The notes under the pieces are model-generated. The model saw only the letters and a list, made by a program, of their open reading frames with translations. It was not told the origin of the DNA and did not search any database. Below, piece by piece: positions 6,858 through 18,747 of a stretch of DNA of 64,000 nucleotides (the stretch's first letter is position 1; every line of letters begins with the position of its first letter). Source of the DNA: Clostridiales bacterium (GTDB taxonomy: Bacteria; Bacillota; Clostridia; Christensenellales; Aristaeellaceae); NCBI GenBank assembly GCA_015056315.1, contig SVGN01000006.1:35076-99075 (forward strand). The letters are read 5' to 3'. The translations under genes and the position numbers were made by a program.

Positions 6858-6899
6858 GGAGACGTATCGAAGTGGTCATAACGGGGCTGACTCGAAATC
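6858..6899 (+). repeat. 5' half of tRNA-Ser (truncated copy)
   Basis: The first 42 bases of tRNA-Ser(CGA), from the acceptor through the anticodon loop, are repeated here with one mismatch relative to 7040-7081. The rest of the tRNA is absent. It lies directly downstream of the only tRNA-type promoter seen for this locus. Confidence 0.75.
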
Positions 6900-7039: not shown

Positions 7040-7130
7040 GGAGACGTATCGAAGCGGTCATAACGGGGCTGACTCGAAATCAGTTTGCCGGGTTTCCGGC
7101 ACGTGGGTTCGAATCCCACCGTCTCCGCCA
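7040..7130 (+). tRNA. tRNA-Ser (CGA)
   Basis: A complete type II tRNA of 91 bases including CCA: acceptor GGAGACG/CGTCTCC, a long variable arm (GCCGGGTTTCCGGC) and anticodon CGA in loop CTCGAAA. Its last 26 bases plus flank form the left attachment core of the element to the right. Confidence 0.93.
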
Positions 7131-7133
7131 CAC
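7108..7133 (+). repeat. Attachment site core, left (attL)
   Basis: Twenty-six bases covering the T arm, acceptor strand and CCA of tRNA-Ser plus three bases are repeated exactly at 18722-18747. The integrase gene starts this side of the element, the usual arrangement for tRNA-targeting tyrosine recombinases. Confidence 0.85.
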
Positions 7134-7241: not shown

Positions 7242-8420
7242 TCACTTGACCGAATCCATATAGTTTTGCATCCTGCTTGCGCTGTCCCTGCGCATCTTCT
7301 CCGTAACATGGATGTATATGTTGGCGGTGGTGGATATGTTGGAATGCCCCAGAGCTTCGGAAACCACCTTCAGATCGTCGCCGTTCTGGAGGGAGATCGT
7401 CGCATAAGTGTGCCGGAGATCGTGAACACGGGCGGAGGGTATGCCGGATGCCCTCACAATGCGCTTGAAGCTGCCGTAAACCGAATCAACAGTAAGGTGC
7501 TTGCCATCCTCATGGGTGAATACCAAGTCAAGCGAATTCGCCCATTCTGAGCCGAAAAACAACCGTTGCTGTGCCTGTGTCCTGCGTTGCTCTCTCAGTA
7601 TATCCACGATACCGGGGGCAAGCGTTACCGTCCTGACACCACCCGTTTTGGTCTCTGCCAGCCGGTATTGACCGCCCCCGCCGGGGAGCCTTTCTTTTTG
7701 TAACTGACGATCAATGCGGATGGTTCCATTGTCGAAGTCCACGCAGCACCAGCGAAGCCCCAGAGCTTCACCCATTCGCATTCCGGAGAACAAAATAACC
7801 GTGAACAGGTTTTGATACTTGTGACCTTGCACAGCTTGGAGAAACGTTCTCACTTCCGCATCCGTAAGGGGCTTTATTTCGTGTTTCTCTGCCCTTGGCA
7901 GCTCACAGGCATCACAGGGGTTGACCTTGATGTAATCAATCTTTACAGCTTGTTGCAGGGCTTTATGGAGTATCCCATGCAGGTTCTTTATGCTTTTGTT
8001 GCTGAGACCGCCGGAGCCGTTCCCCCTCTCCCGCTGCTTTTTGTTATACAGGCTTTGGATCATGGGGGCGGTGAGCTGGGACAACTTCACAGCACCGATA
8101 CCGGGCTTTATATGCTGCTCTATGTATGTCCTGTACTGGCTGCGGGTGGAGGCTTTCACGCTGCCAAGGTATTCCCCGTGCCAGATGTCCATCCATTGTG
8201 CAACGGTGAGCCGGGACGGCTCAGTAAACACGCCTTGGTCAACCTCCGCCGTGTATGCGGTGATCTTCTTCCGAACCTCCGCCTGTGTTTTGCCGTAGAA
8301 GGACTTTTGCAGCAGCTTCCCGGAGCCGGGATCCCTGCCGATGGAGATACGCCCTTCCCAGCTTCCGTCCTTCCGCTGGCGGATCATGCCTTGCCCATTA
8401 GCTGCTTTGTGTTTCGCCAT
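7242..8420 (-). CDS. Tyrosine-type site-specific integrase
   Basis: The 392-residue protein has the three-part structure of Tn916/phage integrases: an arm-binding N-terminus (AP2-like, about 10-65), a SAM-like core-binding domain (about 70-170) and a catalytic domain. The active-site set is complete: Arg215 (SGMRMGEALGLRW), Lys258, His333 and Arg336 (HDLRHTYAT), His359 (LGHSN) and nucleophile Tyr369. It integrates and excises the element at the 3' end of tRNA-Ser, the adjacent gene. Its start overlaps the end of the repressor gene by 23 bases, so the two are one transcript and translation is probably coupled. No damage is visible, so the element may still be mobile. Confidence 0.95.
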   Translation of the reverse strand: MAKHKAANGQGMIRQRKDGSWEGRISIGRDPGSGKLLQKSFYGKTQAEVRKKITAYTAEVDQGVFTEPSRLTVAQWMDIWHGEYLGSVKASTRSQYRTYIEQHIKPGIGAVKLSQLTAPMIQSLYNKKQRERGNGSGGLSNKSIKNLHGILHKALQQAVKIDYIKVNPCDACELPRAEKHEIKPLTDAEVRTFLQAVQGHKYQNLFTVILFSGMRMGEALGLRWCCVDFDNGTIRIDRQLQKERLPGGGGQYRLAETKTGGVRTVTLAPGIVDILREQRRTQAQQRLFFGSEWANSLDLVFTHEDGKHLTVDSVYGSFKRIVRASGIPSARVHDLRHTYATISLQNGDDLKVVSEALGHSNISTTANIYIHVTEKMRRDSASRMQNYMDSVK

Positions 8421-9198
8421 TTATACGATCCTCCAATATCTGCATAACTTCTTCGACGGTTGGGACTTCCTCATCCGGGCGGATTACAATCTGCGTTTCT
8501 GTTTCTGACAACGGCGGAGGGGAACCCCGTTTGAAAGTGACCTTAAAATTCTTGTTCGCTTCTGCTATGAGCCTTTGCAAATCTATTTCATGTTTCAGCC
8601 GTTCCAGATCCACGGGGGCGGATGCCTTTTCTGTGGAATATTTCAAAATCAGAGATTTCACCCAATCTGTAAGAATATCCCTCATTTCGTATTCGCATTC
8701 ACGGGAAACCCTGCTGAACTCCAACAGTAAGCGACCAATGCCGACCCCATCCGGCTGCTGAAACTCATCGATTAGTGTATCCATATCCTTGCTTTCGATA
8801 TAATCCGCCCATGCTTTGTGCTGCAGCAGCATATTGGCGTGGCTGGCAAGTGAGAAAACCCGTTCGAGATTCCCGGCGAAATCATCAACGATCCAAAGGG
8901 CTTGTGGTTCATGTTCCTTCAGAAACGAAAGCTGTTCCGCCGTGGCCTGTGATATACCCAGCAGGGCGCAAGCGTTTTGCATATCCTGCTCTATGCTCTT
9001 GCATTCCGTCCTTCCAAGCAGATAGTCGGTAGATACACCGTAATGATCAGCGATCATAACAAGGGTATCAAACCCCGGTTCTCTTCGCTCCCCTTCGTAC
9101 ATGGAATAAGCCGAAGCCTTTAGCCCTATGGCTTGCGCTGCCTCCGCCTGTGTTCGTTCCCCTCTTAATTCCCTTAGTCTTTGCCCGAAACCATTCAT
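8398..9198 (-). CDS. XRE-family repressor (CI-like)
   Basis: The 266-residue protein begins with a Cro/CI helix-turn-helix (residues about 5-65, with RTQAEAAQAIGLKASAYSMY and DYLLGRT). A helical, charged C-terminus follows with no recognisable S24 peptidase site, so LexA-like self-cleavage is unlikely. I chose the ATG at 9198 because GGGAGG lies about eight bases upstream; a longer start at 9231 has none. It is divergent from the excisionase-like gene across a 153-base control region and co-transcribed with the integrase. It is inferred to keep the element integrated by repressing the rightward promoter. Confidence 0.85.
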   Translation of the reverse strand: MNGFGQRLRELRGERTQAEAAQAIGLKASAYSMYEGERREPGFDTLVMIADHYGVSTDYLLGRTECKSIEQDMQNACALLGISQATAEQLSFLKEHEPQALWIVDDFAGNLERVFSLASHANMLLQHKAWADYIESKDMDTLIDEFQQPDGVGIGRLLLEFSRVSRECEYEMRDILTDWVKSLILKYSTEKASAPVDLERLKHEIDLQRLIAEANKNFKVTFKRGSPPPLSETETQIVIRPDEEVPTVEEVMQILEDRINGETQSS

Positions 9199-9351: not shown

Positions 9352-9537
9352 ATGAACGAAAACCGTATCACCATCACCCCGAAGGAAGCAGCCGGAATGC
9401 TGGGTCTGTCCATGACAACCATGTATGAGCTGGTACACAGCGAGGGCTTCCCCTCTATCCGGGTAGGCAAGAAGATTCTCATCAACGTGGAGGGCTTGAA
9501 ACACTGGGTCAACGAGCGCAGCGGGATGGTGGTGTGA
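9352..9537 (+). CDS. Excisionase-family helix-turn-helix protein
   Basis: The 61-residue protein is a compact MerR-like HTH_17/excisionase domain: ITITPKEAAGMLGLSMTTMY, followed by a wing ending SIRVGKKILINVEGLKHWV. AAAGGAG precedes the ATG. It is the first gene of the rightward transcript, directly behind the strong early promoter. In related elements such proteins direct the integrase towards excision or act as activators. Its stop is almost adjacent to the next gene's start, indicating coupled translation. Confidence 0.85.
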   Translation: MNENRITITPKEAAGMLGLSMTTMYELVHSEGFPSIRVGKKILINVEGLKHWVNERSGMVV

Positions 9538-9541
9538 TGCG

Positions 9542-10279
9542 TTGGAAAACGGATACATCAAGCTGTGGCGATCCATTGACAGCTGGGGCTGGAGGACGAA
9601 CCCGAACACTTTGAGCGTGTTTCTGTACTGCCTCACCCATGCCCGCCACACTCCGGGAGAGTATCATGGTGTGCAGCTCCAGCCGGGGCAGCTGATCACC
9701 GGCAGGGATGCTATCAGCCGGGGAACAGGGGTAACCACCCAATCCGTGCGTACAGCCCTCAACAATCTAAAAAAAGGCGGAGAATTAACCATCAAATCAA
9801 CCAACAAATTCTCTGTTATAACCGTTGTGAATTGGGCAAAATTCCAATCCGCAACCGCCACACCTAACCAGCAACCTAACCAACAACTAACCAACAACCA
9901 ACCAGCAACTAACCAACAACTAACCACAAACAAGAATGATAAGAATGAAATAATGGAAGATGTTGTTGGGGGCAGCATCAGCACCATTCTCGACGATGTT
10001 ATCAAGAGGGGATGGGGTAAACCACCAACGCCGTACATCGCCGGAGAAATAGCACGGCTTGCCAACGAATACGGGGCTACTTTTGTTTCGGCTGCTGTAG
10101 ATACCGCTCTGGCTCACGATACAAAGGGCGGAATATCCATAGCGTATGTCGAAAAGATTCTTTCCAATATGCCACGCCGAACAGCGGTTCCAAAAGTCAA
10201 GTTTGAGAAGCGCATAGACGAACATGGAAACCCGTATGTTGTTGTGATCCGTACCCCGGAGCCGGACGATCCATATTAA
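9542..10279 (+). CDS. Phage replication initiator / DnaD-like protein
   Basis: The 245-residue protein starts ENGYIKLWRSIDSWGW, a typical N-terminus of phage replisome-organiser proteins. It has a winged-helix segment (GQLITGRDAISRGTGVTTQS, then STNKFSVITVVNWAKFQ). A low-complexity Asn/Gln/Thr linker (residues about 103-132) leads to a helical C-terminal domain (about 145-215). The start codon is TTG five bases after the preceding stop, with only weak Shine-Dalgarno complementarity, so translation is probably coupled. Its likely role is opening the element's origin and loading the host helicase. A tandem 12-bp repeat array lies downstream at 10342-10389. Confidence 0.75.
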   Translation: MENGYIKLWRSIDSWGWRTNPNTLSVFLYCLTHARHTPGEYHGVQLQPGQLITGRDAISRGTGVTTQSVRTALNNLKKGGELTIKSTNKFSVITVVNWAKFQSATATPNQQPNQQLTNNQPATNQQLTTNKNDKNEIMEDVVGGSISTILDDVIKRGWGKPPTPYIAGEIARLANEYGATFVSAAVDTALAHDTKGGISIAYVEKILSNMPRRTAVPKVKFEKRIDEHGNPYVVVIRTPEPDDPY

Positions 10280-10671: not shown

Positions 10672-10983
10672 TTGAACTCTAAACGTAAAGGGAACGCCGG
10701 GGAGCGGGAACTGCTCTCCATCTTGGCGGAGGCTGGAAAGGCTGAAAGGAACGATCAGCGGTATATCGGCGGGAAGGACAACCCCGATATATCCTTCCAG
10801 CACAACGGCAAGAAGTACCATGTAGAGTGCAAGCGTTGTGAAAAGCTGAGTCTGTACGAAGCAATGGAACAGGCTATCCGGGATGCAAACGGTCATGCTA
10901 CCCCAGTTGTGATGCACCGCAGAAACAAGAAACCGTGGTTGGTTATCCTCCGCCTTTCGGATTTTTTGAACGAAAAGGAGTGA
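10672..10983 (+). CDS. Phage Holliday-junction-resolvase-like PD-(D/E)XK nuclease
   Basis: The 103-residue protein fits the small phage/archaeal resolvase fold. KRKGNAGERELLSIL carries the early Glu, DNPDISFQ the Asp and VECKRCEKL the E-x-K pair of the PD-(D/E)XK centre. A conserved PVVMHRRNKKPWLVIL strand follows. Such enzymes cut branched DNA before packaging. The start is TTG, ten bases after AAGGAGG; no ATG is available nearby. Its stop overlaps the Shine-Dalgarno region of the tail-terminator gene. Confidence 0.8.
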   Translation: MNSKRKGNAGERELLSILAEAGKAERNDQRYIGGKDNPDISFQHNGKKYHVECKRCEKLSLYEAMEQAIRDANGHATPVVMHRRNKKPWLVILRLSDFLNEKE

Positions 10984-10988
10984 GCAGT

Positions 10989-11405
10989 ATTCTTTTTTCG
11001 GATCTCTCACAGGTTATCTATAACCTGTGGTCTGGATTCCATCTGAACGGAATTCCAATTCCGGCATATAAAAGCGGTCACGTCCCCGACCATGCGAAAC
11101 CGCCTTTTATTACCTTTTCCGTTAGCATGGGCAATCTTGGAGATGTTACCAATCAAACCGCCTTTTTGTGGCTCCGGCACACCCCCGGCAGCAACGTAAA
11201 CCGGGATCGTGCAGCCGTTGCGGATCAGATCGCCTCTGCCATCCCCACCAGAGGAAAAGCGATTGCAGCAGCCAACGGCGGAGGGGTTTGGATCTCCAGA
11301 AGCGGATTGTTCCTTTCGGATAATGACCCGGAAGCAACCGACCCCAAGCCGGACGAAGAACCCATTATCGGCTTGCGTGTATCCTATTCGACAAAAACGT
11401 ATTGA
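10989..11405 (+). CDS. Phage tail terminator-like protein (ATT start)
   Basis: The 138-residue protein resembles siphophage tail-completion/terminator proteins: a helix LSQVIYNLWSGFHLNGIPIP, then a strand HAKPPFITFSVSMG. These proteins cap the tail tube and join it to the neck. The codon properly spaced (eight bases) behind AAGGAG (10975-10980) is ATT at 10989; the only canonical alternative, GTG at 10980, overlaps the Shine-Dalgarno sequence. The frame is intact to TGA. Normally tail tube, chaperone and tape-measure genes would follow; here the tail-tip gene comes next. Confidence 0.65.
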   Translation: MLFSDLSQVIYNLWSGFHLNGIPIPAYKSGHVPDHAKPPFITFSVSMGNLGDVTNQTAFLWLRHTPGSNVNRDRAAVADQIASAIPTRGKAIAAANGGGVWISRSGLFLSDNDPEATDPKPDEEPIIGLRVSYSTKTY

Positions 11406-11418
11406 GAGGTGAAGCAAA

Positions 11419-14007
11419 ATCAAACGGATATTGCTTCCGAAACAAGTCAACCCGACCACTTTCAAGAACAGCAAGCCCCTGCACCCGCTTTTGCTGTCGG
11501 TGAGCTTCGACCAGATTCCATGCTCTATGGCGAGAATGGTTCTGCCGGAGGGGGAAAGTCTTTCGGTTCGTGAGCTGGTGCGCCTGTACACTTCCGAAGG
11601 TGATGCCGGTATTTTTCGGGTAACAGCCACCACCCCAGTATATCCGGGGAACATGGAAGTTACCCTCGCCCACGGCATATGCATTCTGAATGATACCAGA
11701 ATCAAAGGGAGTGGGTACATCGAGGGCACCTTCGGATCTGTGATCGCCGATATCATCAGCCATCAAGAAGGAAACACTTTTGCGGTTGGATACTTTGCAG
11801 ACGGTGAAACCGTCCGCATTAAGTATGACAACGATACTCTTCTGGATCTTCTCAAACAGGCTTGTCAAAAGGCAAAGAAACAACGTCTAACCGTTGATCA
11901 ATCCTCCGCCACTTGGATTCTTGGCTCTGAATCCATCCCCGACCATCCGACCGCAGAGGGCAGGTTTGCCAGAAATCTGGGCACGGTTTCTATGAACGTG
12001 GATGACGATAATCTTTGCACCCGGCTGGTTGTCGAACACACGAACTGGGAAACCGGCGAAAAAACATATACCTACTATGATGCGGATACCATCAGCGAAT
12101 ATGGAGTTGTTGAGAAGCCGTGGTCTGTTCCATACGGAGCAACCGAAGAAGATATAACAGCATACGCTAACGAATTTCTGGAAATGTGGAAAGAACCGAG
12201 CGTAAGCATTGATATTGATGCCTCCGATCTTTACGACCTCACCGGGCAAAGCATCGACCGTCTTAAAATCGGTGATATGCTCCGCTGCTGTATGCCCGAT
12301 TATAAAACAACCGTGAACTGCCGCATGAGAACCGTAACGCACCCGGATGTGTACGGCAATCCTCTTAAGCGAAGGATCACATACAGCAACAGCCCCATTG
12401 ATACCTCCGGACTTTTAGTTGAACTGAAGAGGCAGAACGAAAGCAACGGGCGGAGGATCGGCGGGGCAGCATCTTCGGCGGAGGCTGCCCGATGGGGTAT
12501 CAATCTCACCCATGAACGGCTTGAAGAGCTTGATCAGTATACGAAAGCAACCTTTAACGCCGTTGGTATTGAGCTGAACGCACAGAAGGCAACAGTCGGG
12601 ATTCACGCAACGAACATAACCACACTTTTCGAAGATGTTGAGCGTGTAGCACAGATAACCGGCGATGTTTCCGTTCAGCTTGATGCCCAGAACAGGACGA
12701 TCAACCTCAAAGCCGACCAGAAAGCCGTTGATGATCTGACAAACGAGGTAACCACACTTGGAACAGATGTTTCTGTCGGGGTTGATGGTCTGCGAGCCAC
12801 CATCCAGCAGAACGATAAAACGCTTTCCGAACTGAATGCTACTATCGCCGGTCTGGAGCATTGGGTAACCGACGGAGCAGATAACGTTTCCGAACTGGTC
12901 AATACTGTTCGTGGTTTGGAGAGCATCGTCTCTGCTGCCGGAGGGCAGATCAGCACGCTCACCAACACCGCCGATGGCCTCACAAGCATTGTAAACGGGC
13001 AGGGCGAACAGCTTGCCACGTTCAAGACCCGCATTGATGAAATCACCAGTGAAGTCAAGGGGGCGAACGGCAGCATAACCAGCCTTTCGGTTTATGTTGA
13101 TGAGATCTCCGGGGTTGTCAAAGCTGCGGGCGGGAAGATTGGTTCCTTGGTTGTATCTGCCGATGAGATTTCCGGCAAAATCACCGACCAAACGAAAGCT
13201 TTTTCGCAGCTCCTTGCAAAGATTGATGAGATCTCTGCAAACGTACAAGCTGCGAATGGTGATATCGGCAAGATTACCGTGCAAAGCAACGAGATTGCGC
13301 AGACCATTGTGAGCGCCGATAAGCGCATCACTTCGCAGCTCAAATTGATTGCCGGTGTTATAGAGTTGCAAACCAAGGCTGATGGAACCGCTGTATCCCT
13401 CCGCCTTAATGCTCTTGACAATATGATCACAGCACAAGCTGGAACGATTGCCAATATCAGCGGTGATACCAAGAGCATAGGCGAAACCCTTTCGACGATT
13501 ACAGGCTCCACGATCTGGCAGAACAGAGAAAGCATCACCGGCGTTGTAGGGAATATGTCGGTTGGCGCAGACGGGAAGATCTATATCAAGGATGGCAGCG
13601 GTCTGATGATCACCAAGGGCAGCGCAAGCTATGGTGTGTACGATTCCAACAGCCTTACAGCGGGTATCATCGTCAACAAGATCAACGGCGGTACGGCTAC
13701 CATCAAAGCCGAGCGCATCAACCTTGAAGGTTATGTTACTGCCGATAAGCTCTCCACAGAGATAGCCAACATCATGACTCAGTTTAGCGGGAAACTCAGC
13801 ACAGGAGAGTTGGAAGTAACCAAAGGCCCGTTCTCTTTCCAGGGGTATAACATCGTTCGCCGGAGTAAAGCGGTGATGACAAGTTTGCCAACATTCACGA
13901 CCGCAACCGTAACCCTTGCCAATGGCAACCAAATCAAAGTTGTAACTGGTTGGGCTGATGCCCCAAGCAACCACAGATCCACCCTGTTTTATCTGGGTGA
14001 TGAATAA
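11419..14007 (+). CDS. Phage tail-tip / minor structural protein (ATC start)
   Basis: About 862 residues. The N-terminal 330 residues resemble siphophage tail-associated (Prophage_tail, endopeptidase-type) proteins. A long coiled-coil region (about 340-720) has recurring units such as KIDEISANVQAANGDIGKIT. A short C-terminal domain ends in WADAPSNHRSTLFYLGDE. Such proteins form the tail tip that contacts the host cell. AGAGGTG is followed after seven bases by ATC AAA CGG ATA TTG; a TTG start at 11431 is the fallback, losing four residues. The gene starts 13 bases after the tail-terminator stop. Confidence 0.7.
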   Translation: MKRILLPKQVNPTTFKNSKPLHPLLLSVSFDQIPCSMARMVLPEGESLSVRELVRLYTSEGDAGIFRVTATTPVYPGNMEVTLAHGICILNDTRIKGSGYIEGTFGSVIADIISHQEGNTFAVGYFADGETVRIKYDNDTLLDLLKQACQKAKKQRLTVDQSSATWILGSESIPDHPTAEGRFARNLGTVSMNVDDDNLCTRLVVEHTNWETGEKTYTYYDADTISEYGVVEKPWSVPYGATEEDITAYANEFLEMWKEPSVSIDIDASDLYDLTGQSIDRLKIGDMLRCCMPDYKTTVNCRMRTVTHPDVYGNPLKRRITYSNSPIDTSGLLVELKRQNESNGRRIGGAASSAEAARWGINLTHERLEELDQYTKATFNAVGIELNAQKATVGIHATNITTLFEDVERVAQITGDVSVQLDAQNRTINLKADQKAVDDLTNEVTTLGTDVSVGVDGLRATIQQNDKTLSELNATIAGLEHWVTDGADNVSELVNTVRGLESIVSAAGGQISTLTNTADGLTSIVNGQGEQLATFKTRIDEITSEVKGANGSITSLSVYVDEISGVVKAAGGKIGSLVVSADEISGKITDQTKAFSQLLAKIDEISANVQAANGDIGKITVQSNEIAQTIVSADKRITSQLKLIAGVIELQTKADGTAVSLRLNALDNMITAQAGTIANISGDTKSIGETLSTITGSTIWQNRESITGVVGNMSVGADGKIYIKDGSGLMITKGSASYGVYDSNSLTAGIIVNKINGGTATIKAERINLEGYVTADKLSTEIANIMTQFSGKLSTGELEVTKGPFSFQGYNIVRRSKAVMTSLPTFTTATVTLANGNQIKVVTGWADAPSNHRSTLFYLGDE

Positions 14008-14020
14008 GGAGGAACATACC

Positions 14021-14194
14021 ATGATCAAGATTCTTGACACCATCATTGCAGCTCTGAACAAAGTCGAGGTGCGGGGGCTGGATAATGTGAAAATCCTGAG
14101 TGATTGCATTATTACCCTTCGGGATTTTCGCAACATGATCGCCGAAGAGCTGGAGAAGTCTGCGACCGAGACGGAGGTGGTATCCGATGACTGA
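14021..14194 (+). CDS. Small phage protein, unknown
   Basis: A 57-residue acidic helical protein (MIKILDTIIAALNKVEVRG) starts at ATG eight bases behind AAGGAGG. It follows the tail-tip gene by 13 bases and overlaps the next gene by eight bases, so it is part of the same transcript. The helical pattern suggests a small adaptor or chaperone; no family is recognised. Confidence 0.65.
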   Translation: MIKILDTIIAALNKVEVRGLDNVKILSDCIITLRDFRNMIAEELEKSATETEVVSDD

Positions 14195-14324
14195 AGCAGC
14201 CAAGGAAGCCCGCCGAGCCTATCAGCGTAAGTGGCGGAGGGAGAACCCCGAAAAGGTGCGGGCTACTCAGGATCGCTACTGGGAAAAGAAATCCATCGAA
14301 GCCAAAAAGGAGCTGAAAGCATGA
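14187..14324 (+). CDS. Small basic phage protein, unknown
   Basis: A 45-residue, highly charged protein (AYQRKWRRENPEKVRATQ in the middle) is encoded in an ATG frame that overlaps the preceding gene by eight bases and the next start by four (ATGA). The overlaps argue for real translation. It shares the KW(Y/R)R-NP(D/E)KV pattern with the 58-residue protein at 10399-10575. Function unknown. Confidence 0.6.
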   Translation: MTEAAKEARRAYQRKWRRENPEKVRATQDRYWEKKSIEAKKELKA

Positions 14325-14866
14325 GAACCCTTGATGAACTTTTGACCGCAGCGAAAGAAGCCAAGAACGGCTATTCCGCCAATGTACAGAGAGCCGAGCA
14401 GGAACGGCAGCTGCTGCAGAAAGCCCTTTCCGCAGCCCGTACAGCGCAGGAAGCTGCTGCTGCCTCTGGTGACCGTGCAGCATATGACAAGGCTCACAGC
14501 GACGAAAAGTACGCCTCCGCCCGTCTGGCTGCTATCGCCCAGCCGAAGCCGTTCTTCACCAGAGAAGAAAACAATGCCTTTGCTGCCGAAGTGCGCAGGG
14601 CATACGTTGAAGCTGTAAAACCCCACTACAAGCACCTGCAGGAGCTGCGCCATCAATGGCAAGCTGTCCTTGACCAGATCAACGAGGAAGCCCAGAAGGT
14701 GCGTATCATCGGCAATAAGATGAATGCAGCACACCCCCAAAACAGAGATTATTCCATTCGCTATGACAAGCCATACGAGTGTCTTTCCCCCCGTCTGGAT
14801 ACCTTCAAGGATGGCGAAGCCGTGCATGCTATCGACACTTTTCTGAGAATCTACGATAAGGAGTAA
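14321..14866 (+). CDS. Phage protein with coiled coil, unknown
   Basis: A 181-residue soluble protein. The first 80 residues are a heptad-rich helix (EQERQLLQKALSAARTAQEA). A second helical part follows, then an aromatic C-terminus. The ATG overlaps the upstream stop as ATGA, so translation is coupled; AAGGAG lies just before it. It sits in the cluster of small genes between tail tip and the RinA-like regulator. I recognise no family. Confidence 0.65.
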   Translation: MRTLDELLTAAKEAKNGYSANVQRAEQERQLLQKALSAARTAQEAAAASGDRAAYDKAHSDEKYASARLAAIAQPKPFFTREENNAFAAEVRRAYVEAVKPHYKHLQELRHQWQAVLDQINEEAQKVRIIGNKMNAAHPQNRDYSIRYDKPYECLSPRLDTFKDGEAVHAIDTFLRIYDKE

Positions 14867-14872
14867 ACCGCC

Positions 14873-15403
14873 ATGAAAGAATGTATTTCCATCGCCCGTA
14901 ACTTTTTGGATGTGGTTTCCGCAGCAAAAGCGGAGCTTCGCACCATCGGCGAAACCTACAAGGGCGAAGCCCTCCGCAGCAAGTCGGCGGAGGTGCTGAA
15001 GGGGCTGCAAGCCGAGTACCTTACCACCGGGCAGCTCATCCAGAAGCGTATCGATGAAGCCGAAAAGCGTGCTGCCGAGGAACAGAAGAACCTTTTCAAC
15101 GTCCCTCCCTCCGCTGATTTCCAGTATCTTACCCTACCAATTGTGCTGGATCAGGATCAGCTTTCTATTCTTCATGAGCGCAACAGCGCAGACCCTATTT
15201 TTTGCAAGGCTCTGAACGAATACGTTCAGAAGAACCACCCCGACAGCGGTGCATATTTCTCCTGTACTGCTCCCGGCGCAAAGGCAGAATGCAACAGCAT
15301 GAAGGTGGTTTTCAATGATCTGTTGCGTTCCTCTGCCCCCGCTGATATGCCCAGCTTTGACCAGATCGCCGACGATCTGTACTGGGGTATGGAAACCAAC
15401 TGA
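14873..15403 (+). CDS. Phage protein, unknown
   Basis: A 176-residue protein with a helical N-terminal half (about 1-65) and a mixed C-terminal half containing YLTLPIVLDQDQLSIL. AAGGAG lies nine bases before the ATG, and the gene begins six bases after the preceding stop. The similar length and two-part design of this and the preceding protein suggest the two work together. Function unknown. Confidence 0.65.
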   Translation: MKECISIARNFLDVVSAAKAELRTIGETYKGEALRSKSAEVLKGLQAEYLTTGQLIQKRIDEAEKRAAEEQKNLFNVPPSADFQYLTLPIVLDQDQLSILHERNSADPIFCKALNEYVQKNHPDSGAYFSCTAPGAKAECNSMKVVFNDLLRSSAPADMPSFDQIADDLYWGMETN

Positions 15404-15419
15404 TAAGGAGTGACCCGCC

Positions 15420-15941
15420 ATGATGCCCGAACCCCGGAAGAATCAAGATGTCCGATTGTGGCTAAAGGGCTACCGCAGCAATATGCGAAACCTTGATAAC
15501 CACATCAAGGTATATGAGCGTTACCGGGCAAAGGTTGACAGGTATGAAGCTGCTTTCAGCAGGGCTACCAGCGCAACCCAGAAATGGGGAACGGGCATCA
15601 AGGGGAACCAGCGCAATTTCTCAGACAAAACCGCCGATGCGGTTCTGGAGATGATAGAAGCCTCCGCCACCGCCAGCCGGGGAGATTATGACGGTCTTTT
15701 CGATTGGCTGGTGGAGGATCTCTCCGCTCTGGCTTCCTCCGGCCGTAAAGTGCTGGCAGCTATCAACAACCTATCCCATGCAGACCACAAAGATGCGCTT
15801 TTCCGGCGGTATATCGTTGGTGATACATGGGAGAAGATCGCCCTTGATATGGGCGTTTCTGTTGAATCCGTGTATAAGTGGCACGGGCATGCGCTGGATG
15901 AACTGAAAGAAAAGGGCGTACTTCCGCCCGAAAAGGAGTGA
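15420..15941 (+). CDS. RinA/ArpU-like phage late transcription regulator
   Basis: The 173-residue protein ends in a sigma-70 region-4-like helix-turn-helix: LFRRYIVGDTWEKIALDMGV, then SVESVYKWHGHALDELKE. A helical N-terminal half precedes it. This is the layout of DUF1492/ArpU/RinA-type regulators, which switch on late packaging and virion genes in Gram-positive phages and normally lie just before terminase. Here the portal gene follows directly and terminase is absent. AAGGAGTGACCCGCC precedes the ATG. Confidence 0.75.
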   Translation: MMPEPRKNQDVRLWLKGYRSNMRNLDNHIKVYERYRAKVDRYEAAFSRATSATQKWGTGIKGNQRNFSDKTADAVLEMIEASATASRGDYDGLFDWLVEDLSALASSGRKVLAAINNLSHADHKDALFRRYIVGDTWEKIALDMGVSVESVYKWHGHALDELKEKGVLPPEKE

Positions 15942-15947
15942 TCCACC

Positions 15948-17396
15948 ATATTCATCAAATACACATACCAAGACTGGGAGAGTACCCCGGCAGCGCAGCG
16001 CACCGAGCTGCTGGAGAAGATCATCAAGGATTACAAGAACAGCCCCGATTTTCGGCAAGCAGCCGTTGCCAATTCCTACTGGATGAACGAGGGAAAGAAG
16101 ATCGACGAAAAGTATATCCTCTCCCCGAAAGCCATCAATCACGGCGACCCCAAAACCGGCACAGTAACTAAGCATGTGCATCTTACTCCCGTAGTGGGCA
16201 ACCGCATTTCCTGCGATTTCTACCAGCGTTTTGTAACCCACCGGGCGCAGTACAGCCTTTCTCATGGTGTTCTGATCGACGGCAAGCCCAGCGCACAGAG
16301 CATGGGTGTAGGCTTCGATAACGCCGTGGCTACCGCTGCCCAATATGCACAGGTTCACGGTGTGTGCTGGGGCTACTGGAACCACGACCATCTGGAGCTG
16401 TTCCCCGCCTATGAGGATGCTCTTTCCGGCTTCGTTGCCCTGCTGGATGAGCGCAACAGCCAGCCGATGGTCGGCATTCGCTTCTGGCAGATCGACAAAG
16501 ACCGCCCCATGTGGGTGCAGCTCTATGAGCCGGACGGCATGACCGAGTACCGCAAGCCCAAAGATGCACAGCATCTGATCCCGTACAAGGCAAAACAGGC
16601 ATATTACAGCAAGGGCTACAAAGATGCAGCCGGGTCTGTGATCACCGAAACCGGCAATTATTCTGCCCTGCCGGTTGTTCCCCTGTTCGCCAACAAGCAG
16701 CATCGATCCACCCTGACCACCGCCATCAAGTGCAAGATTGATGCATACGATGTGATTACCTCCGATTTTGCCGATAATCTGGAAAAGACCAACGAAATTT
16801 ATTGGGTGCTGAATAACTTCGGCGGGTCTACTTCGGAGATCGTCAATATGATGGAAACCATCAACGAGCTGAAAGTGGTAGCCAACATCAGCGACGGCAC
16901 AGGCAGCAGCAGCGCAGAGCCGAAGTCCTTTGAAGTCCCCTATGCTGCCCGGAGCCAAGCCGTTGCCCTGCTGACCGAAACCCTGCACGACGATGCTATG
17001 GTGGTCAATCTGAAGGAGATCACCGGCGGGAGCCTGACCAACGTTGCTATCGAAGTAGCATTCACCCGCATGGATTTGGGAGCCGACGAGCTGGAATGGG
17101 AGGTTTTTACCTTCGTGCAGCATCTTCTTGCGCTGGCGGGAATCCAGACCGAAAACATCACGTTCAAGCGCAGCCGTCTGTTCAATACGGCGGAAACCAT
17201 CCAAGAGATTTACACCATGCGCAACGATATCTCCCAGAGGAAAGCCCTTGCGCTGAATCCTCTTATCACCAATGATGAGATTGATCAAATCATGCAGGAA
17301 TCCGCACAGGAAGCAGCAGCCCGCCGGGAGATGGAAGCCATTGCTGCAGCCGTGGATGAGACCATGACCGAGGAAGATTCTTTCGGGCAGCGATGA
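15948..17396 (+). CDS. Phage portal protein, SPP1-like family (ATA start)
   Basis: About 482 residues from the codon nine bases behind AAGGAG. That codon is ATA, followed by FIKYTYQDWE, a normal portal N-terminus. The first ATG is 45 codons further in (16083) and would remove part of the conserved N-terminal region. Typical segments are NRISCDFYQRFVTHRAQYSL and later NTAETIQEIYTMRNDISQRK. The portal forms the dodecameric DNA gate of the capsid. The upstream spacer GGAGTGATCCACC closely resembles GGAGTGACCCGCC before the ATG of the previous gene, supporting ATA as the intended start position. It is the last rightward gene. Confidence 0.75.
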   Translation: MFIKYTYQDWESTPAAQRTELLEKIIKDYKNSPDFRQAAVANSYWMNEGKKIDEKYILSPKAINHGDPKTGTVTKHVHLTPVVGNRISCDFYQRFVTHRAQYSLSHGVLIDGKPSAQSMGVGFDNAVATAAQYAQVHGVCWGYWNHDHLELFPAYEDALSGFVALLDERNSQPMVGIRFWQIDKDRPMWVQLYEPDGMTEYRKPKDAQHLIPYKAKQAYYSKGYKDAAGSVITETGNYSALPVVPLFANKQHRSTLTTAIKCKIDAYDVITSDFADNLEKTNEIYWVLNNFGGSTSEIVNMMETINELKVVANISDGTGSSSAEPKSFEVPYAARSQAVALLTETLHDDAMVVNLKEITGGSLTNVAIEVAFTRMDLGADELEWEVFTFVQHLLALAGIQTENITFKRSRLFNTAETIQEIYTMRNDISQRKALALNPLITNDEIDQIMQESAQEAAARREMEAIAAAVDETMTEEDSFGQR

Positions 17397-17423
17397 ATCA
17401 GCGAGGAAAGAATCGGTTTCCCG

Positions 17424-17665: not shown

Positions 17666-17935
17666 TTACGCAATGGTCAACCGGTGGCTGGTGGTGGTCT
17701 TGGTGAACTGGGCTGCAACCTCTGGCATGGCTTTCTTCAGGGCGGTGGTGTCCACCCGGCTGCTGCTGACCGCCTTGTAGGTGATCTTGAACGCCCCTGC
17801 AATGATCTGTTCCTGATCCCCCATAGCTGCCTTGATAGCGTCCTTCAGGCTATCAATTTCGGCTTCCAGTTCGTCCTGCATCCGCTGAAGCTCTTTCAGC
17901 TCCATAACCTTGGCTTCCATTTCCTTGATACTCAT
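17666..17935 (-). CDS. Conserved phage/ICE coiled-coil protein, unknown
   Basis: An 89-residue protein: a helical N-terminal half (KVMELKELQRMQDELEAEID) and a small beta C-terminal half with FKITYKAVSSSRVDTTALKK. The pattern 'helical leader, then W/Y-K-x-V-x-S-S-R-x-D-T-x-x-L-K' recurs in small proteins of Clostridia phages and conjugative elements, but its role is not known to me. It starts 58 bases downstream of a promoter whose spacer contains the palindrome ACTAACGTTAGT, so the ribbon-helix-helix protein encoded opposite may control it. Confidence 0.65.
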   Translation of the reverse strand: MSIKEMEAKVMELKELQRMQDELEAEIDSLKDAIKAAMGDQEQIIAGAFKITYKAVSSSRVDTTALKKAMPEVAAQFTKTTTSHRLTIA

Positions 17936-17993
17936 TCGGTAAAACCCCTTTCAACGGTGATTCAGCGGGGAAAGATCCCCGGCTGATGGATAT

Positions 17994-18375: not shown

Positions 18376-18571
18376 CCCTTGCTTCCCTGCCGGGTGTAAT
18401 CCTCCGCCCAGCCAGCAGAAACGAAAATAAAGGGCATTCTGGGCTGTTAACATATGTTAATGTTTTCGCCTATATAGGGAACCTTACAAAACCTTACTAT
18501 ATGCCCGTGGAGCCTTTCGGGAGGCACGGCGAATCAGCGGGGAAAAATACTCAAAAATACTGAATTTTGAC

Positions 18572-18721: not shown

Positions 18722-18747
18722 TTCGAATCCCACCGTCTCCGCCACAC
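18722..18747 (+). repeat. Attachment site core, right (attR)
   Basis: It is an exact copy of the last 26 bases of the attL core (tRNA-Ser T arm, acceptor strand and CCA plus three bases). No 5' half of the tRNA lies in front of it. Confidence 0.85.

Follow-up and report, generated by a model that had tools for sequence, protein, structure and literature searches.

Translation from AUA, AUC or AUU start codons (AUH) is known from a handful of bacterial genes. In Staphylococcus aureus, infC (AUA), ccpN (AUA) and cvfC1 (AUU) combine such codons with extended Shine-Dalgarno (SD) sequences and yield about 10%, and up to 30%, of the product obtained with AUG; the authors describe this as translation attenuation modulated by IF3 (PMC13009471). 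Exchange of ATG for ATA at the start of Escherichia coli rpoS lowered the protein by up to 5-fold, though that study rates ATA at up to 1% of ATG (PMC12864459). For phages, one article goes no further than a remark that non-canonical starts are prevalent (PMC13072308). In the open-licence PMC literature on start codons and portal dosage, none of the accessible text was found to describe a phage portal gene that starts with AUH.

Here we describe a portal gene that very likely starts at AUA, located in an integrated element within a 64,000-nucleotide stretch of a Clostridiales genome (the window). The gene resembles infC in having an AUH codon behind a strong SD. This includes the infC of the host, where no canonical codon lies in reach of the SD and ATT/ATC stands in the usual IF3 arrangement. 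However, infC is autoregulated by its own product in E. coli (cited in PMC13009471), and the portal has no such loop. Likewise, ccpN and cvfC1 share the conserved AUH codon and extended SD (PMC13009471), but they are chromosomal genes for which initiation was measured, whereas the portal start is predicted from sequence. Streptomyces sigR also uses a weak start as a translational brake under IF3, although its codon is GTC and the gene is regulatory (PMC5472188). The portal of Dulem virus 33 is alike in being an SPP1-type gene with ATA and an SD; it differs in belonging to a complete phage, in being only 30-34% identical to the window portal, and in its separate origin in the tree. The start codon is thus of a kind already known from infC and ccpN; what appears to be new is that it occurs in the portal gene of a phage and that it recurs independently.

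Organization of the integrated element

A 26-bp perfect direct repeat of the tRNA-Ser 3' end bounds an integrated element of about 11.6 kb. Both an integrase and att repeats are present, as in integrative elements of tRNA genes (Table 1). We scanned 17 element proteins, namely ten forward-strand proteins, the integrase, the repressor, three small forward-strand proteins, and two minus-strand proteins. No terminase or capsid protein was detected among these 17, which sets the element apart from a complete temperate phage, and for this reason it would not make virions by itself. The suggestion in the initial annotation that virion production is affected therefore goes too far. Assignment of the portal to the SPP1 Gp6 type is secure, with 83.9 bits for PF05133 against a curated cut-off of 25.5. 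The tail-terminator-like protein had no match in the family search and carries the name given in the initial annotation.

Several further features were noted in and around the element. Downstream of the portal, a GAATCAGCGGGGAAA-like motif occurs in three direct copies (17390-17412, 17954-17976, 18526-18548), spaced by 564 and 572 bases. For a small minus-strand protein (17666-17935), matches were obtained to the C-terminal portion of a RecE-like exonuclease family and to a Mu Gam-like family (phrog_434, phrog_253). In addition, positions 6858-6899 are a 42-base near-copy (98%) of the tRNA-Ser 5' half (7040-7081), 182 bases upstream of it, for which no tRNA was called.

Table 1. Positions of the element's features in the window, and of ATC scaffold starts in other phages
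Feature	Position	Strand	Evidence or remark
tRNA-Ser (cga), integration site	7040..7130	+	attL 7108-7133
Tyrosine integrase	7242..8420	-	PF00589, E 2e-30
HTH repressor-like protein	8398..9198	-	PF01381
Excisionase-like HTH protein, ATG start	9352..9537	+	PF12728, phrog_66
DnaD-like helicase loader, TTG start	9542..10279	+	phrog_2514
RusA/PDDEXK nuclease, TTG start	10672..10983	+	phrog_244, PF24608
Tail-terminator-like gene, ATT 10989 or in-frame GTG 10980	10989..11405	+	Name from the initial annotation; relatives P0125, P0126
Tail-tip (prophage endopeptidase tail) gene, ATC 11419, alternative TTG 11431	11419..14007	+	PF06605
Sigma-like or ArpU-like transcription regulator, ATG start	15420..15941	+	phrog_36, phrog_248
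Portal Shine-Dalgarno sequence, AAAAGGAG-TGATC	15931..15943	+	Near-complete anti-SD complement; -15.0 kcal/mol
Portal gene, SPP1 Gp6-like, ATA start	15948..17396	+	PF05133, E 2e-23; phrog_64, E 7e-31; N-terminus
attR, tRNA-Ser 3' end copy	18722..18747	+	Repeat match to attL
ATC scaffold starts	L240:9490, L242:6905, L249:3418, L253:9674, L265:4364, L267:9463, L268:8601, L284:6509		

Start of the portal gene

The initial annotation proposed that the tail-terminator, tail-tip and portal genes each have an AUH codon where the start codon should be. ATT 10989, ATC 11419 and ATA 15948 are all present, in frame, and 6-9 bases behind an SD. For the portal, the SD is AAGGAG (15933-15938) followed by TGATC, and the leader is similar to those of genes further upstream that have ATG (leader family D2: 14003, 14855, 15402, 15930), as had been noted for the preceding gene. 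The regulator gene terminates with AAG GAG TGA in the same frame as the portal. The portal frame is open from 15942 and closes two codons upstream of ATA. The next in-frame canonical codon is ATG 16083, 45 codons into the gene, with no ATG, GTG or TTG between. This ATG has no SD (-0.9 kcal/mol) and starting there would remove the conserved TYQDW block.

Comparison with relatives bears out the match of the portal N-terminus to its family. Met occupies the position of the ATA residue in all 11 relatives with 62-65% identity (P0005-P0015; MFIKYTYQDW, MYIKHTYQDW). We take this first Met to be encoded by ATG because the protein database gives the raw first residue, as seen in the window records that begin with V or L. 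At 42-47% identity, the same position is TTG in L001 and ATG in L003-L006. The 97% identical portal P0004, a different allele, is recorded solely from the internal ATG, as would be expected of an allele that likewise has no canonical codon upstream. One portal relative was recovered by genome scan. The portal leader pairs with the 16S tail more strongly (Table 1) than those of ATG portals (median -11.2 kcal/mol), with 6 of 103 ATG portals having an SD at least as strong. Fusion of the portal to the sigma-like regulator by TGA read-through, which the shared frame would allow, was considered and rejected: the portals of relatives begin with Met at the ATA position, and the terminase and portal of Dulem virus 33 lie in different frames.

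Starts of the tail-tip and tail-terminator genes

The frames had been said to reach upstream to just the three AUH codons. While this holds for the portal and for the tail tip (open from 11413), it does not for the tail terminator, in which the open frame extends back to 10842 and includes GTG 10980 and GTG 10935. The tail-tip SD is GAGGTGA (11406-11412), and its energy is -11.7 kcal/mol for ATC 11419 compared to -3.3 kcal/mol for TTG 11431, the start given both in the ORF list and in the database record. Fifteen homologues place the tail-tip start one codon after ATC 11419, with relatives' starts scattering over several nearby columns; for example, the start of P0129 falls in the column of ATC and the Met of P0128 in that of TTG 11431.

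The tail-terminator SD (AAGGAG, 10975-10980) is contained in the 3' end of the RusA/PDDEXK nuclease gene and favors ATT 10989 (-11.2 kcal/mol) over GTG 10980 (-5.3 kcal/mol). However, this GTG, at -3 from ATT, aligns with the Met of the closest relative, P0125. Relative to ATT, the starts implied are -3 (P0125), +1 (L098), and +2 (L001, P0126) by hand count, and seven homologues imply a start three codons after ATT, further from GTG 10980. The SDs of both genes are of average strength, and no close relatives of either were found in the IMG/VR scans.

On the basis of the relatives' implied starts and the SD pairing energies, the AUH start is firm for the portal and likely for the tail tip; for the tail terminator it is doubtful. 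The proposal of weak AUH starts is therefore well supported for one gene of the three and probable for a second. The initial annotation also recognized that homologues with ATG at other positions would argue against it. In the portal relatives Met is at the same position; for the other two genes, the objection is partly sustained by P0125 and P0128.

Recurrence of AUH portal starts

We read portal starts in relatives from IMG/VR, GenBank phages, and further genomes. In Dulem virus 33 (PP511792.1), the portal begins ATA AAA ACT TAT CAG. An in-frame stop lies three codons upstream of this ATA, with GCG CCA alone between, and the SD (GAGGTGA) overlaps the terminase stop. The annotated portal starts of this virus (L088:1233-1284) and of Flavonifractor phage Chenonceau (L087:11995-12046) lie 17 codons downstream of the homologous start; the true starts are likely ATA and TTG, respectively. 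The structural region of Dulem virus 33 also has two matches to the gut-2 sRNA (RF02990; L088:4141-4188 and 8787-8834).

A further clade comes from IMG/VR. The portal of L025 begins ATA AAA ACA GCA and that of L028 ATT ATC AAA ACA. L026, L027 and L030, near-copies of L028, have ATT-ATC with a canonical codon 10-12 codons upstream and are AUH-only within eight codons of the implied start; in L026, the start codon is ATT or ATC. The six pairs within L026, L027, L028 and L030 have dN/dS of 0.036-0.094, and the L025 portal is still 76% identical to them in protein sequence, although synonymous sites are saturated. This purifying selection indicates that the L025-L030 portals are kept while their starts are AUH. 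The AUH codon is conserved in this clade. In the clade of the window portal, the 62-65% relatives have Met and the 97% relative is called only internally. A maximum-likelihood tree of 71 portals, with eight rows labelled AUH, requires at least four label changes, or three without L125 (by inspection). The portals of L024 and L125 were left off the firm AUH list due to an in-frame GTG in or near the SD, although L125 is labelled AUH in the tree.

The L125 prophage is itself a second case of several weak starts within one element, having a minor-tail-like gene with ATC (AAAGGAGGGAGAAGC-ATC, L125:9269) in addition to its portal ATA with GTG at -3 (L125:3787).

In 80 additional portals of the Dulem group, 71 have ATG at the model start or beside it (70 in the script tally, in which a row with ATG then GTG was scored as GTG), four have TTG, and five rows with four distinct leaders have AUH with an in-frame GTG at -3. 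No AUH start without such a GTG was found among these 80. A GTG at this position is absent from the 71 ATG rows (Fisher 9e-7 for AUH versus ATG rows, 4/0 vs 0/70), and in the wider set it occurs in 2 of 104 ATG portals. As a result, GTG was taken as the likely start in the five AUH rows and they were not counted. In these five (L217, L228, L251, L254, L271), AUH stands at the homologous start and GTG inside the SD, and ATG is present in L233 and L235, whose leaders resemble that of L228. This suggests that start codons are migrating into the SD in this group.

Scaffold genes that start at ATC

AUH starts can also be accidents. The head scaffold gene begins with ATC in eight nonredundant phages (Table 1), in the context GACTTATCGC in seven of the eight; its identity is given by PF06810 in L249 and phrog_194 in L240 and L284. 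A motif search of 93 scaffold-family ORFs returned ATG at the start in 59 and ATC in 9, and in the rest the motif was absent or misplaced or another codon was present. In the three loci checked, a NUMOD4/HNH_3 endonuclease gene lies directly upstream of the ATC scaffold. Several endonuclease genes open with a scaffold-like leader and ATG GCA CT (L240, L249), and that of L268 with ATG GCT GAA. It seems that the endonuclease gene inserted at the scaffold start and took over the leader and ATG, its own 3' end providing a new SD and an AUC start. A group I intron was rejected as the cause after none of the eight loci gave an Rfam match above the cut-off; insertion is preferred because it better accounts for the GCACT repeat and for the ATG that belongs to the endonuclease.

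Frequency and strength of AUH starts

We surveyed homology-implied starts in 140 sequences (139 phage loci and the element), comprising 805 nonredundant genes. Among the 102 portals, 3 had AUH-only starts, compared to 8 among the 703 other genes (p 0.15), a weak enrichment by plain count. All eight of the others are head scaffold genes behind one type of insertion. The window portal is not among the three, having been scored as class 'none' because shorter relatives shifted the implied start three codons on. In a smaller, earlier set that included the window portal, the counts were 3/44 portals and 2/296 other genes (p 0.017), with one of the two others judged spurious. Counting origins after the fact gave 4/102 portals (the window, L025-L030, Dulem virus 33, and the ambiguous L125) compared to 2/703 others (scaffold and the L125 minor-tail-like gene) with p 0.003, which is suggestive only. 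By eye, L105 and most other 'none' rows of the start surveys are spurious frames or internal positions and were discarded.

The four AUH portal lineages have SD energies of -15.0, -17.3, -18.3 and -12.4 kcal/mol (p 0.003 against 103 ATG portals, which were not deduplicated); these energies were calculated with an assumed 16S tail sequence. For TTG starts, median energies are -12.8 kcal/mol in portals and -13.1 kcal/mol in other genes, compared to -10.2 kcal/mol in non-portal genes with ATG. For GTG starts, they are -12.3 kcal/mol in other genes and -7.5 kcal/mol in the 10 portals. Except in GTG portals, the weaker codon goes with the stronger SD, as expected of weak starts that work. A crude tally of SD against codon over all ORFs was too noisy and was dropped. 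Two other unusual codons were seen where homologues place the start and a good SD precedes it, namely CTG in a holin-like gene and ACG, in two phages, in a small gene (phrog_1863 in L125) (L119:11731; L125:11175; L129, minus strand).

Alternative explanations

The AUH codons could instead reflect decay or domestication of the element. With terminase and capsid genes gone, portal and tail starts would be free to be lost, or their loss would be favored if the proteins are harmful. This is a serious rival given that the element cannot build virions alone, and since the 11 closest full-length portal relatives have Met at the ATA position, the change to ATA arose on the window branch. However, no stop or frameshift interrupts the portal and tail-tip ORFs, which span 483 and 863 codons including the stop. 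Had each suffered a single random inactivating substitution, the odds of both hitting starts would be about 0.002, or 0.0002 for the third base alone. Moreover, one of the AUH portals elsewhere belongs to a complete phage genome, and others are under purifying selection. We therefore consider decay possible, though on the unlikely side. An error of sequencing or assembly at the third base is very improbable: the host genome is a draft of 101 contigs that is 80% complete, but P0004, as a different allele, is also called from the internal ATG alone.

The starts may also have been misassigned, with the canonical GTG 10980 and TTG 11431 being the real ones. The Met residues of P0125 and P0128 are in keeping with this, as are the five AUH rows in the census of 80 portals, since a GTG inside the SD may serve there. 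For the portal, in contrast, misassignment is impossible, as no canonical codon lies upstream and none follows for 45 codons. For the other two genes, the canonical codons are nearly devoid of an SD, and the seven tail-terminator homologues point away from GTG, which makes this explanation improbable overall. Less probable again is an origin at junctions, in which indels attached the end of an upstream gene, SD included, to each structural gene at its second codon, leaving AUH as a remnant. By the gene order of Chenonceau and Dulem virus 33, the usual phage genes are missing before all three genes. The AUC scaffold starts behind NUMOD4/HNH endonucleases in eight phages provide a precedent, and the RusA/PDDEXK nuclease lies directly upstream of the tail terminator. 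Yet the terminase large subunit immediately precedes the portal in Dulem virus 33 and L026, an anti-repressor gene lies between terminase and portal in L025, and a leftover codon would be ATH in just 3 of 64 cases, the chance expectation. In addition, no NUMOD/HNH match was obtained in the 17 element proteins, and the tRNA was the sole RNA element near the window starts to exceed the cut-off.

Predicted mechanism and significance

The model we favor over these alternatives builds on observed codon positions, homologous N-termini, computed SD strength, recurrence in other phages, and purifying selection on AUH portals elsewhere. Portal translation would begin at AUA 15948 less often than at an AUG, with perhaps a tenth of the yield. 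The initiator tRNA would mispair with AUA at the third base and IF3 would reject most of the resulting complexes, while the long SD overlapping the upstream stop codon would retain the ribosome so that some initiations pass. The tail tip likely undergoes the same attenuated initiation from AUC; the tail terminator may not. Taken together, this three-part reading, in which the portal very likely starts at AUA and is predicted to be attenuated, has about an even chance of being correct. Initiation itself, its rate, its dependence on IF3, and attenuation as a selected trait are predictions drawn from the genomic data.

By analogy, AUA is probably an attenuated, IF3-sensitive start rather than proof of silencing, because the S. 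aureus AUH starts give about 10-30% of AUG. Of the earlier proposal that expression is throttled or silenced, throttling fits the literature on AUH codons with strong SDs (PMC13009471), and silencing is more than the sequences show.

The predicted rate can be set against the number of copies that a virion needs. The portal is a dodecamer present in 12 copies per virion, and tail-tip proteins are likewise low-copy, so a low initiation rate would be tolerable or even useful. This logic alone does not explain the choice of AUH, as other low-copy genes have ATG. Excess or shortage of portal is thought to spoil head assembly. On a bolder and rather speculative view, which we think is probably not correct as it stands, Clostridia phages repeatedly use AUH with a compensating long SD as an IF3-sensing valve on the dosage of the one-per-virion portal vertex. 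Since the host infC also has an AUH start, the amount of portal made would follow free IF3 and the state of the ribosome pool, and gene callers limited to canonical start codons would hide the arrangement by clipping the N-terminus.

Given an ATA behind a strong SD at the ATG position of relatives, together with AUH portals in at least two other phage lineages, it is likely that these phages make a low-copy part sparingly. If so, start-codon strength would be a means by which phages set portal dose, and public annotation would be clipping some portal N-termini, by 17 codons in Dulem virus 33 and Chenonceau.
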